NCBI GenBank assembly: GCA_016791045.1
Contig: JAEUNO010000025.1
Location: forward strand, 27,106-91,105
Source of the DNA: Methyloversatilis sp.
GTDB lineage: Bacteria; Pseudomonadota; Gammaproteobacteria; Burkholderiales; Rhodocyclaceae
Direction of reading: 5' to 3'
DNA: 64,000 bases
A model generated the notes under the pieces. It was not told where the DNA came from, ran no database searches, and worked only from the letters and a program-made list of their open reading frames with translations. Position 1 is the first letter of the stretch, and every line of letters begins with the position of its first letter. Positions 48,870-52,540 of the stretch are shown here, piece after piece. The position numbers were made by a program, and so were the translations under genes.

Positions 48870-48986
48870 TCTGCCGGCAGGCAGGGGCAGCGCGAGCTGA
48901 ATCGGGGATCAAGTCCGGCCCGCACGCTGCCGTATACACAGACATCGAACCACATGCGCACCGCGGTGCGCCACGGAGAACATGTC

Positions 48987-49844
48987 ATGGGTGAGCCGGT
49001 GAATTCATCGCTTGAAGCACTGCAGCGGCTTTCAGCCGAACTTGAATCGGGCGACATCGTCTTCCCGACCAGCATCGATGTGTCCCTGCGCATCCGGCAG
49101 GCGCTTGAAAACCCCGATATCAACGTCAATGAGGTCTGCCGGCTGGTTGGCGCCGAGCCGGTGCTCAGCGCAAAAGCGCTGCGCCTCGCCAATTCGGTCG
49201 CCTACAACCGCAGCGGCAACGAAATCACCGACGTCCGTACCGCGGTGACGCGCGTCGGTACCGAACCGATCCGCATGCTCACGATGTCGCTCATCGTCCG
49301 CCAGATGGTCGATGCGCGCGCCGACGAACGCCTGCGCGTGCTGACGCATGACCTGTGGCGCCACACCATCCACGTTTCGGCGCTGAGCTACGTGATCGCG
49401 CGTCGCCTGTCGCGGCTGAACGCAGACACGGCCATGTTCGCAGGTCTGGTGCATGAAATCGGCCAGTTCTACCTGCTGGCCCGCGCCTCGGCCTTCCCGG
49501 CGCTGCTGCAGCGCGAAGCCGAACTGGGCGGGCTGATGTACAGTTTCAGCCAGAGCGTCGGCCGCGCCGTGCTCGAGTCGCTCAAGGTACCGGAACAGGT
49601 CATTTCCGCCGTCGACGCTCCGTCGTTCGAAGGGGCCGTCGTGCCGCCCCGCTCGCTGGGCGACGTGCTGTTCCTTGCCGAAAGCATGGCGGCATTTCCG
49701 AATCCATTCACCACGCTGTCGCCGGAAGAAGATGGTCTGCTTGCCGATGCGGCAACCTCGGACATCGACAACGAAACGCTGGAAGCGGTGGTTGCGGAAT
49801 CCAAGGAAGAGATCGACTCCATCATCGCCACATTGCAGATTTGA
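48987..49844 (+). CDS. HDOD domain signalling protein
   Basis: A 285-residue protein made almost entirely of an HDOD domain: FPTSIDVSLRIRQALENPDINVNEVCRLVGAEPVLSAKALRLANSVAYNRSGNEITDVRTAVTRVGTEPIRML is the N-terminal half, and HTIHVSALSYVIARRLSRLNADTAMFAGLVHEIGQFYLL the second. HDOD proteins are non-enzymatic relatives of HD-GYP domains linked to stress, motility and c-di-GMP signalling. The start ATG 48987 follows CGGAGAAC. It directly precedes the c-di-GMP aptamer region but ends 95 bp before the candidate sigma-28 promoter, so it is a separate unit. Confidence 0.88.
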   Translation: MGEPVNSSLEALQRLSAELESGDIVFPTSIDVSLRIRQALENPDINVNEVCRLVGAEPVLSAKALRLANSVAYNRSGNEITDVRTAVTRVGTEPIRMLTMSLIVRQMVDARADERLRVLTHDLWRHTIHVSALSYVIARRLSRLNADTAMFAGLVHEIGQFYLLARASAFPALLQREAELGGLMYSFSQSVGRAVLESLKVPEQVISAVDAPSFEGAVVPPRSLGDVLFLAESMAAFPNPFTTLSPEEDGLLADAATSDIDNETLEAVVAESKEEIDSIIATLQI

Positions 49845-49938: not shown

Positions 49939-49965
49939 TAAAGTCCGGCGCAGCGCAGTCGTTAA
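49939..49965 (+). promoter_or_regulatory. Candidate sigma-28 (FliA) promoter
   Basis: TAAAGTCC (49939-49946), 11 bp, then GTCGTTAA (49958-49965). The FliA consensus is TAAAGTTT-N11-GCCGATAA; each half matches 6 of 8 and the spacing is exact. The predicted transcription start near 49972 is just ahead of the aptamer. The 94 bp between the HDOD stop and this promoter hold no gene. Confidence 0.6.
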
Positions 49966-49984
49966 ATGATGTGACGACATATTG

Positions 49985-50088
49985 AAGCTGAACCAGGGCA
50001 AACCCACCGAAAGGTGGCGACGCAAAGTTTCCGGTCTACCGGGTGCCCAGCGCCCCACGACAGCGGGGCCGCCGCGAAGCTGTAACCC
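49985..50088 (+). ncRNA. Cyclic di-GMP-I riboswitch (GEMM-I) aptamer
   Basis: The conserved core is present: CAGGGCAAACC (49994-50004), a P2 stem CCACC/GGTGG capped by a GAAA tetraloop (50009-50012), GACGCAAAG (50019-50027), and CCGGTCTA (50031-50038), the tetraloop-receptor side of P3. P3 closes by AGTTTC (50026-50031) with GAAGCT (50076-50081); an internal GCCCC/GGGGC hairpin (50052-50056 with 50065-50069) extends it. The G of CAGGGC favours c-di-GMP over the cGAMP variant. It lies about 75 nt before a DUF1631 start codon. No terminator is seen, so control is probably translational or Rho-dependent. Confidence 0.88.
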
Positions 50089-50164
50089 CGCCTCGCGTCC
50101 GGTCCTGACTTTGCGCCCCGTTTCAGCCTTTACCGACCGCCGTGCGCGGCCGCAAAGGTGAATC

Positions 50165-52540
50165 ATGAGCGCTGTACCCCTGCCGAAACAGACTGCCGTA
50201 CCGCCCGAACGAGGGCGGGTGATCAGCGACTGCCGCGATTTCACGATCCGGCGCCTGCGTGATTCGCTGCGCGGCATGCTGGAAAAGATCGAAGAAGATC
50301 TGGTCGCCCGGGCCGAGGCGGAACTCGACCGTGACCAGCGCAACCTCTACATGTTCACCTGCGGCAAGGCCCGCCAGCAGTGGGCCGGCATCGAACAGAC
50401 CTTCATCGACCACCTGACCCGCTATTTCGACGCGCGCGTACGCGGCGAGCCGGTCGAATCGTCGCGCTCAGCGGTTCCGACTTCACTCGACGAACTCAGC
50501 CTGGTGGGCGAAGACGACCTGACGCAGGATCTGGCTGTCCATGAACTGACCCGCAAGCTGAAGGAACACTGCGACGAGGAACTGTTCGGCGTCGAACAGC
50601 GTCTGGGTTCGCTGCTTGGCAAGTCAGACCCGACCGATCAGGACAATCCGCTCGGCACCGAAGGCGTCGCCAAGGCGTTGCGCGCGGCGTGCGAAGAGGT
50701 CGATGCCAGCGTGCAGATGCGGCTGGTGCTTCTGCAATCGCTCGAATCGCAGATTTCACGCGAACTTTCAAAGCTTTACCAGGACCTCAACGTACGACTG
50801 CAGCGACAGAACGTCCTGCCGGGACTGCGTCGCGGCTTCCGCCGCAATGTCGGCGCGCGTGCAGGCGTGGCGGGCGTGCCGCCCGCGCAGGGCGTTGGCG
50901 CAGCCGGCGATCCGGCGGGAATGGCCAGCGGTGGTTTTGCGCCGTCGGCAAGCGGGCAGGGGGGCTTTCCTTCGACAGGCAGCGCCCAGGACTCAGGCTT
51001 CACCGCATCAATGCCCGGTTTCGGCATGTCGTCGGTCAATGGCGGCTTCGGCGAGCAGGCTGCGTTCGGTGGCGCCGCCGAAGCGGACGGCGACATCTAC
51101 GCCATGCTGTCGCAACTGGTCCAGGGCCAGATGGCGGCGCAGGGCATTGCGCTGCCGCCCATCGGCGCGGCCGGAGCCAGTCCGGCCGGGCTGGCATCAC
51201 CCTTCGTGTTCGAGGCCCTCAGCGCGCTGCAGTCCGACGCCGATCTTTCGGTGCCGGCCGCCGCGTCCTACAACCTCGGCATACCGCCCAATCTGCTGCG
51301 CAACTTCCGCACCTCGGAACTGGGCCGCCACCTCGGGCAGTTCGATGCGATCACGGTCGACATCGTCGCCATGCTGTTCGACCTCATCTTCGACGACGCC
51401 GATATCGCCGATCCGATCAAGGCGCTGGTCGGCCGGCTGCAGATTCCGCTGGTCAAGGTGGCCATGCTGGATCGCAGCTTTTTCTCCAGCAAGGCACATC
51501 CGGCGCGTCGATTGCTCGACCTGATTTCCAATTCGATGATGCGCTGGGGGCGCGACGTCGGTCACGAAGACCCGCTGTACATCAAGCTGGCTGAAATCGT
51601 CGATCGCATCCTGCGCGACTTCGACCGCGATCTGAGCCTGTTCGAGGCCTGCAGCGACGACCTGCGCGCCTTCGTCATCGAACTCGAGGCGGACGAGACG
51701 AAGCGCGCGGAAGCTGCGGCGCTGATCGCCAGCGCGCGCGAGCAGGAGCGGCTGCACCGCGAGGACGCGCGGCGCGCTGCCGACGACGAGATCGATGACC
51801 GGTTGCGCAAGCCGCTGCCCGGTGTCGTGCAAAGTCTGCTTGATGGCGTATGGCGCAGACTGCTGCGCAAGCACGTCGACGCCGGTCCGGACGCGGCGGT
51901 CGATTACCAGCAGGCGCTTGCCACCATCGACGAACTGATCTGGAGCGTGCAGGCCAAGGCCGATGCGGATGAACGCCGCGCCCTCGTGGTCGCGTTGCCC
52001 GGTTTGCTGCGCCGCCTCAACCAGGGCTTCGATCTGGCAGGCGCCCATCCGGCCGACAAGCTGATGCTGCTCAACGGCCTGTTCGACCTGCATGCGCAGT
52101 GGATCAAGCCCGGCGCGGCAGCCGCGCCGCCGGCGGTCGAACAGTGGGTGCCGGACGCGTACTCCGCGAATGACGATGTGCCGGCGCCTGAAGTCGTCAG
52201 CGAGCATGTCGAGCAGGACGGTCTTGAGCTGAATGACATTTCACTCAATCTGCCGGCGCCGCTCGACATCCAGGAGCAGGACCGCGTATTCGAACTCAAG
52301 CGCGGCGACTGGATCGAGTTCCGGCAGGCTGACGGCAGTTTCGTGCGCATGCGCCTGAACTGGGTCAGCCCGCAACGCGGCATCTACCTGTTCACCAATC
52401 CCGGTTCGACGCGGGCCACCTCGATCGCACCCGACGCGCTGGCGCTGCAGCTGGCCAACGGCGAAGCACGCGTGGTCAACAATGAGCCGATGTTCGACCG
52501 GGCGGTCAGCCAGGCGCTCGGCCAGCAGCGCGCGCGTTAA
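50165..52540 (+). CDS. DUF1631 family protein under c-di-GMP riboswitch control
   Basis: A 791-residue cytoplasmic protein matching DUF1631. The N-terminal helical region (ISDCRDFTIRRLRDSLRGMLEKIEEDLVARAEAELDRDQRNLYM) is followed by a low-complexity Gly/Ala/Pro/Ser linker (residues about 230-310), a helical core (SYNLGIPPNLLRNFRTSELGRHLGQFDAITVDIVAMLFDLIFDD), and a C-terminal beta-rich module (FELKRGDWIEFRQADGSFVRMRLNWVSPQRGIYLFTNP) that looks PilZ-like in layout but has no clear RxxxR motif. The function is unknown. The c-di-GMP aptamer and sigma-28 promoter upstream suggest a motility or attachment role. Ribosome-binding site AAAGGTG is 4-10 bases before the ATG. Confidence 0.88.
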   Translation: MSAVPLPKQTAVPPERGRVISDCRDFTIRRLRDSLRGMLEKIEEDLVARAEAELDRDQRNLYMFTCGKARQQWAGIEQTFIDHLTRYFDARVRGEPVESSRSAVPTSLDELSLVGEDDLTQDLAVHELTRKLKEHCDEELFGVEQRLGSLLGKSDPTDQDNPLGTEGVAKALRAACEEVDASVQMRLVLLQSLESQISRELSKLYQDLNVRLQRQNVLPGLRRGFRRNVGARAGVAGVPPAQGVGAAGDPAGMASGGFAPSASGQGGFPSTGSAQDSGFTASMPGFGMSSVNGGFGEQAAFGGAAEADGDIYAMLSQLVQGQMAAQGIALPPIGAAGASPAGLASPFVFEALSALQSDADLSVPAAASYNLGIPPNLLRNFRTSELGRHLGQFDAITVDIVAMLFDLIFDDADIADPIKALVGRLQIPLVKVAMLDRSFFSSKAHPARRLLDLISNSMMRWGRDVGHEDPLYIKLAEIVDRILRDFDRDLSLFEACSDDLRAFVIELEADETKRAEAAALIASAREQERLHREDARRAADDEIDDRLRKPLPGVVQSLLDGVWRRLLRKHVDAGPDAAVDYQQALATIDELIWSVQAKADADERRALVVALPGLLRRLNQGFDLAGAHPADKLMLLNGLFDLHAQWIKPGAAAAPPAVEQWVPDAYSANDDVPAPEVVSEHVEQDGLELNDISLNLPAPLDIQEQDRVFELKRGDWIEFRQADGSFVRMRLNWVSPQRGIYLFTNPGSTRATSIAPDALALQLANGEARVVNNEPMFDRAVSQALGQQRAR

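Follow-up and report, generated by a model that had tools for sequence, protein, structure and literature searches.

A leader that probably reads two opposing signals was identified ahead of a gene of the uncharacterized family DUF1631 (PF07793) in 64,000 nucleotides of a Methyloversatilis genome (contig JAEUNO010000025.1, positions 27,106–91,105; this whole stretch is hereafter the window, and all coordinates refer to it). Transcription would be started by the flagellar sigma factor sigma-28 (FliA) and translation would be repressed by cyclic diguanosine monophosphate (c-di-GMP) through a c-di-GMP-I (GEMM-I) riboswitch, making the leader a sigma-28 AND NOT c-di-GMP gate. The evidence is computational and consists of the aptamer, a pair of conserved promoter boxes, the occurrence of the same promoter pattern ahead of flagellin and motA, the association of aptamer and gene among relatives and a shuffle-controlled loss of Shine-Dalgarno access. 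A preliminary description, made from the letters of the window alone, had placed a FliA-type site and a GEMM-I aptamer in series ahead of the gene, and had suggested a search for both elements upstream of other DUF1631 genes.

The aptamer (49987–50076, plus strand) matched the Rfam model RF01051 over its full length (model positions 1–87 of 87) at 57.5 bits (gathering score 35, E = 1.3e-08), and it was the single match to this model detected in the genome of the window (completeness 91.94%). The open reading frame (ORF) behind it (50165–52540, plus strand, 791 amino acids) matched PF07793 with 515.6 bits against a cut-off of 33.7, and both assignments of the preliminary description therefore hold. 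The residues which we take to be the c-di-GMP contacts of the Vc2 riboswitch (G20, A47 and C92, in what is presumably the usual numbering) have counterparts of the same identity in the window aptamer (G49998, A50025 and C50072, each checked in the letters). Among 59 related aptamers, the CGCAAA motif of the A47 type and the C of the C92 type are present in all 59. The G of the G20 type was found in 45 by a strict motif that left 14 unmatched; with a looser motif 56 read GG, 2 read GC, probably through a shift of register, and 1 did not match. The window RNA is a predicted c-di-GMP-I riboswitch that would bind the ligand.

The association of the aptamer with DUF1631 was followed through three samples of relatives. 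In the genus sample (13 Methyloversatilis genomes, the window's own included) the aptamer lies between a gene encoding an HDOD domain and DUF1631 in all 13. The wider set comprised the best 80 of 499 DUF1631 relatives (9 genus loci and 71 others) and had an aptamer upstream of the gene in 59 loci, 9 out of 9 within the genus and 50 out of 71 outside it, as detected with a model (R1) built from 33 aptamers ahead of DUF1631 that came partly from the organisms tested. A 60th match (L229) is downstream of the DUF1631 gene, and at least 2 of the 21 loci outside the genus that lack an aptamer sit at a contig edge (L163 and L213). Among the matches listed for 199 genomes of the family, the aptamer occurred in 101 and DUF1631 in 101, and aptamer–DUF1631 pairs were chosen from these matches by eye. 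An Rfam search confirmed the aptamer in 23 out of 23 outside-genus loci picked for having both elements and found none in the 17 DUF1631 loci chosen because no aptamer was listed for them, results which check the picks and are not frequencies. Judged by record titles, carriers include Accumulibacter, Propionivibrio, Uliginosibacterium, Thiobacillus, Sulfuricella, Hydrogenophilales and Burkholderiales; a few bear the title Gammaproteobacteria. No neighbour was common to all scanned DUF1631 loci (QueG upstream in 3 out of 10 and ETF-QO downstream in 3 out of 9), in a scan that took the longest ORF nearby and so may include some ORFs that are not genes. Since the neighbours vary while aptamer and DUF1631 stay together, the comparison points to DUF1631 as the target gene of the aptamer, and by their distribution the two are an old unit.

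Further observations concern this unit and its surroundings. Six of the 23 aptamers before DUF1631 outside the genus (L057 and L070–L074) fit the model RF03167 (c-di-GMP-I-GGC) better than RF01051. Two adjacent DUF1631 matches stand behind one aptamer at four loci (L062, L063, L067 and L068, in genomes G180, G203, G116 and G064), likely a duplication under one switch. The HDOD-domain gene (48954–49844, plus strand, assigned by domain match and genus comparison) is the immediate upstream neighbour in 13 out of 13 genus genomes and is regarded as context outside the switch; of the 80 loci in the wider set, 17 have an HDOD gene close to DUF1631, 9 of these 17 being genus loci.

The consensus boxes of sigma-28 promoters are TAAAGTTT-N11-GCCGATAA. 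The window carries TAAAGTCC (-35 box, 49939–49946, plus strand) and GTCGTTAA (-10 box, 49958–49965, plus strand) at the same spacing, 12 out of 16 consensus letters as the preliminary description had counted them (six out of eight in each box). This is the sole site in the window with at least 12 consensus letters and no site in the window reaches 13. Sites of at least 12 letters occurred on average 0.83 times per shuffled 64 kb (12 shuffled windows), which weighs against a promoter; a single site that is near chance proves little, and the weight comes from conservation. The boxes are recognizable in all 13 genus leaders, with the exact N14 pattern given below in 12 and a spacer one base longer in the exception (L156, genome G012). 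The mean share of the commonest base is 82% for the -35 box and 88% for the -10 box but 55% for the spacer and 44% for the 20 nt of upstream flank, and the CGTTA core of the -10 box is invariant in 13 out of 13 leaders. The comparison with relatives supports both promoter and aptamer well. By its Rfam match the aptamer starts 21 nt after the end of the -10 box. A transcription start near 49972, about 7 nt past the -10 box, would put the aptamer about 15 nt into the transcript, in agreement with the 15–20 nt of the preliminary description. The TGA at 49972–49974, in this putative start region, is invariant in the genus although neighbouring bases vary.

The same pattern was sought across the genomes in the form TMAAGTN14YCGWTA. 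It occurred at 9 sites in the window's own genome (5 for a reversed control) and at 110 sites summed over the 13 genus genomes (41 for the control). One of the nine is the DUF1631 leader, and seven of the other eight are at or ahead of genes for flagellin, MotA, two methyl-accepting chemotaxis proteins, a YcgR-type PilZ protein, an EAL protein followed by a GGDEF protein, and a PAS-GGDEF protein; behind the eighth is a weak outer-membrane match. Behind one of the chemotaxis receptor sites are ORFs that we read as CheY-like and CheA-like. The -10 core reads TCGTTA in the window and CCGTTA at the flagellin and motA sites, as it does in several DUF1631 leaders. The leader promoter would depend on FliA. 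The EAL and GGDEF genes behind the pattern are at L127 (contig C24), and the PAS-GGDEF gene is the second ORF behind its site, after a small ORF (L125, contig C2); because the pattern precedes these genes, the flagellar regulon of this genome may include c-di-GMP turnover enzymes.

Outside the genus the promoter was scored with sigma-28 weights and a threshold of 12 that were set by the authors after viewing the genus alignment, with spacers of 10–12 allowed at a penalty. A box scoring at least 12 was present in 13 out of 50 aptamer–DUF1631 loci, each reached in no more than 1 of 200 shuffles, and the distance from box to aptamer match is 10–35 nt at 12 loci and 52 nt at one (L232), with the box upstream. 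Together with the 13 out of 13 genus genomes, these loci show both signals in series on one leader, as the preliminary description had them. Aptamers ahead of other genes outside the genus had such a box in 1 out of 28 cases, 81 nt away (Fisher p = 0.014 for the comparison with 13 out of 50), with the qualification that these 28 are the top-scoring ones and not a random draw. Within the genus, 3 out of 11 other-gene aptamers reached 12.0 and seven more scored 11.4–11.9. An additional GEMM-I aptamer (a second or third) occurs in 9 of the 12 other genus genomes and was not found in the window's genome; in one of them (L003) a reprolysin-like metallopeptidase ORF follows, and L002 and L005 look similar by eye. 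A sigma-28-like box (11.4–12.0) ends 9–10 nt before the additional aptamer at L002, L003, L005, L006, L007, L008 and L015 (around position 1501 of these loci), and the metallopeptidase locus is possibly a second gene under sigma-28 and c-di-GMP inputs.

Several counts weigh against a flagellar input as a general property. A strong box is lacking in 37 out of 50 aptamer–DUF1631 loci outside the genus, and aptamer-less DUF1631 genes reached 12 in 4 out of 36 cases (1 out of 19 and 3 out of 17), in a longer search of 280 nt that left out two contig-edge loci. No flagellin-domain match was found in 11 of the 50 genomes, many of which are metagenome-assembled genomes of untold completeness, and a box was present in 12 out of 39 genomes with such a match and in 1 out of 11 without (Fisher p = 0.25), the domain being one that also matches other flagellar proteins. 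A plain count of the 16 consensus letters on a first set that omitted L070–L076 reached 12 in 4 out of 16 scored outside-genus loci, at a distance of 59 nt from the aptamer in two cases. From the 37 loci without a box and the 11 genomes without a flagellin match it follows that the core of the arrangement is not its flagellar input: by this comparison control by c-di-GMP is what generally holds, and a flagellar input seems to depend on the lineage.

The 37 loci without a strong box also favour an explanation in which the riboswitch unit is real and the sigma-28-like site is not a working promoter, the RNA being supplied by read-through from the HDOD gene or by another sigma factor and c-di-GMP being the only signal that matters. 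The window score of 12 out of 16, near chance when taken alone, and the position of the HDOD gene just upstream in the same direction throughout the genus fit this explanation as well. It does not account for boxes that remain recognizable in every genus leader while the spacer, the flank and how far the HDOD stop codon lies from them vary, nor for the same pattern ahead of flagellin and motA, and no sigma-70-like site was found by a strict rule between 49800 and 50200. On balance we consider it unlikely.

The expression platform was examined by folding the leader freely and with the aptamer enforced. In the free minimum-energy fold of the window leader, UGAAGCUGAACCAGGGC (49983–49999, plus strand), made up of the leader's first nucleotides and the 5' strand of the aptamer, pairs with GCCCCGUUUCAGCCUUUA (50115–50132, plus strand) in an anti-aptamer helix of 15 pairs, and the platform segment ACUUUGC (50108–50114, plus strand) pairs with GCAAAGU of the aptamer core (50022–50028, 7 pairs). 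In the aptamer-enforced fold, positions 50122–50131 pair with 50154–50162 (9 pairs) and 50134–50140 with 50146–50152 (6 pairs), forming a hairpin (50122–50162, plus strand) that sequesters the Shine-Dalgarno sequence AAAGGUG (50154–50160, plus strand), of which AAAGGU is kept in 12 out of 13 genus leaders. Access to the Shine-Dalgarno sequence (50154–50159) falls from 0.44 in the free fold to 0.04 with the aptamer enforced. The segment 50122–50131 is thus claimed by two mutually exclusive helices in the computed folds. An initial idea in which ACUUUGC alone switches between GCAAAGU of the aptamer and GCAAAGG at the Shine-Dalgarno sequence was changed because ACUUUGC is altered in L021, L014, L017, L009, L018 and L019 and it is 50122–50131 that toggles.

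Both helices were compared within the genus, where five of the 13 leaders are closely related to each other and another three are almost the same. The free pairing between aptamer 5' strand and platform has a mean probability of at least 0.5 in 10 out of 13 leaders, and the corresponding duplex ranks 0–17 among 200 platform shuffles in all 13. Two pairs of the Shine-Dalgarno hairpin are changed on both sides (one C-G/U-A and one C-G/G-C exchange), and the number of cells changed on both sides and the covariation score were each matched by 13 out of 500 shuffles. Other results speak against these helices: the free pairing is below 0.5 in the remaining 3 out of 13 leaders (L012, L014 and L019), the covariation comes from 9 distinct sequences, and of the five measures two do not exceed shuffles, namely pairs changed on both sides (reached by 181 out of 500) and pair types (442 out of 500). 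A plain duplex test on 48 loci outside the genus was uninformative (mean z of -0.58 for aptamer–platform and -0.19 for platform–Shine-Dalgarno).

The change in access was then computed for 53 of the 59 aptamer loci, the start codon being taken by our own rule as the one with the best Shine-Dalgarno match; one locus with a partial protein match (L209), one with no start found (L223) and four with an unmatched motif (L177, L179, L183 and L203) were omitted. With the aptamer enforced, Shine-Dalgarno access dropped by more than 0.1 in 32 out of 53 leaders and rose in 2, with a mean drop of 0.154. Eight rounds of platform-shuffled controls gave means of -0.003 to 0.024, with 5–9 falls and 2–8 rises. 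The drop persists, with a mean of 0.148 for the 44 loci outside the genus and of 0.146 when taken over 42 similarity clusters (22 falls and 2 rises, from rounded values). Against this, the change is no larger than 0.1 in 19 out of 53 leaders, and one genus leader (L157) goes the opposite way, from 0.50 to 0.61. In a full-leader calculation, in which the enforced outer P3 pairs were shifted by one base (the 53-leader and window folds are in the correct register), L016 and L021, the latter from the same organism as L157, were reversed and L014 and L019 hardly changed. The enforced fold costs 8–18 kcal/mol in that calculation, so that ligand binding would need to act during transcription.

The best reading of these models is translational repression by c-di-GMP, an OFF switch. 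Both signs are known for c-di-GMP-I riboswitches, and the title of PMC9262584 names ON- and OFF-switches that have homologous aptamers. An ON switch, or control by transcription termination, by which c-di-GMP would raise DUF1631, could be argued from this and from the 2 out of 53 leaders that fold the opposite way, yet 32 out of 53 lose Shine-Dalgarno access where shuffled platforms give 5–9, and terminator-like sites were absent from the window leader and found in 3 out of 58 other loci; such a switch appears quite unlikely.

In the proposed gate, a sigma-28 promoter would start the DUF1631 transcript, so that the mRNA would be made when the flagellar regulon is on. At low c-di-GMP the leader and aptamer 5' strand (49983–49999) would pair with 50115–50132 and occupy UUCAGCCUUU (50122–50131), leaving the Shine-Dalgarno sequence partly open and the leader translatable. 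With c-di-GMP bound, the aptamer would retain its own 5' strand and release UUCAGCCUUU, which would pair with AAAGGUGAA (50154–50162) and lock the Shine-Dalgarno sequence in the hairpin; switching in the cell would presumably follow this course. The two inputs of the AND/NOT gate named in the preliminary description are supported, and its sign, left open there, is refined by the folds to a predicted AND NOT.

The proposed gate has partial parallels. In Clostridioides difficile, a c-di-GMP-I aptamer ahead of the flgB operon, which leads to the flagellar sigma factor, lowers flagellar gene expression; the DUF1631 aptamer differs in lying behind a sigma-28-type promoter and in having a predicted platform that is translational. 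YcgR senses c-di-GMP as a protein and likewise represents c-di-GMP control within the sigma-28 regulon, with a YcgR-type gene behind the same pattern in this genome, whereas here the mRNA would sense c-di-GMP before the protein is made. Vc2 of Vibrio cholerae tfoY is in the available text of PMC7371385 a c-di-GMP-I switch limiting translation when bound, and a title cited there refers to masking of the ribosome-binding site. The aptamer class is the same and the mechanism proposed for DUF1631 is of the Vc2 kind, with another target gene and platform and with a sigma-28 input added; the same text names four tfoY promoters, two of them VpsR-driven, and no sigma-28 promoter.

The accessible part of PMC3627812 describes the Bdellovibrio merRNA, a massively expressed c-di-GMP riboswitch RNA of the flagellated attack phase that is proposed to be a c-di-GMP reservoir, and reports a FliA motif at about two thirds of mapped attack-phase promoters. 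By analogy, the DUF1631 leader could act mainly in trans, as an RNA transcribed through FliA whose aptamer titrates c-di-GMP. This is highly improbable here: the aptamer is followed by an ORF and by a Shine-Dalgarno hairpin that the genus conserves, and the aptamer stands ahead of DUF1631 in 50 out of 71 loci outside it, whereas merRNA has no conserved ORF behind it and is not marked with a FliA promoter in Table 2 of that source.

For the protein itself, a whole-chain structure model had a mean confidence (predicted local distance difference test) of 75; a Foldseek search with the model returned no match at E 0.001, and the best match of a sequence search against the PDB had an E value of 0.95. 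In the available text of the papers looked into, DUF1631 was named once each, in tables. Neither a link between DUF1631 and a c-di-GMP riboswitch nor a c-di-GMP riboswitch directly behind the sigma-28 promoter of a coding gene was reported in the literature searched, which consisted mostly of titles with few subscription papers.

The suggestion of the preliminary description that DUF1631 acts in the motile-to-sessile switch fits the regulation found here and draws on that regulation only, with the loci lacking a box and the genomes lacking a flagellin match standing against it. A sigma-28 AND NOT c-di-GMP gate would make DUF1631 a protein of the motile, low-c-di-GMP state. Whether it is, more broadly, an unrecognized and widespread effector of that state in the Betaproteobacteria, under an ancient OFF riboswitch for c-di-GMP that in several lineages has come to lie directly behind a FliA promoter to form a coincidence gate, is a question on which we find the balance even. 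The predicted OFF sign extends over dozens of leaders and is testable by simple reporters, and PF07793 gains a testable physiological setting. In this natural leader the flagellar checkpoint (sigma-28) and the sessile signal (c-di-GMP) are joined and, if the reading is true, DUF1631 would be made only in flagella-building cells in which c-di-GMP is still low.

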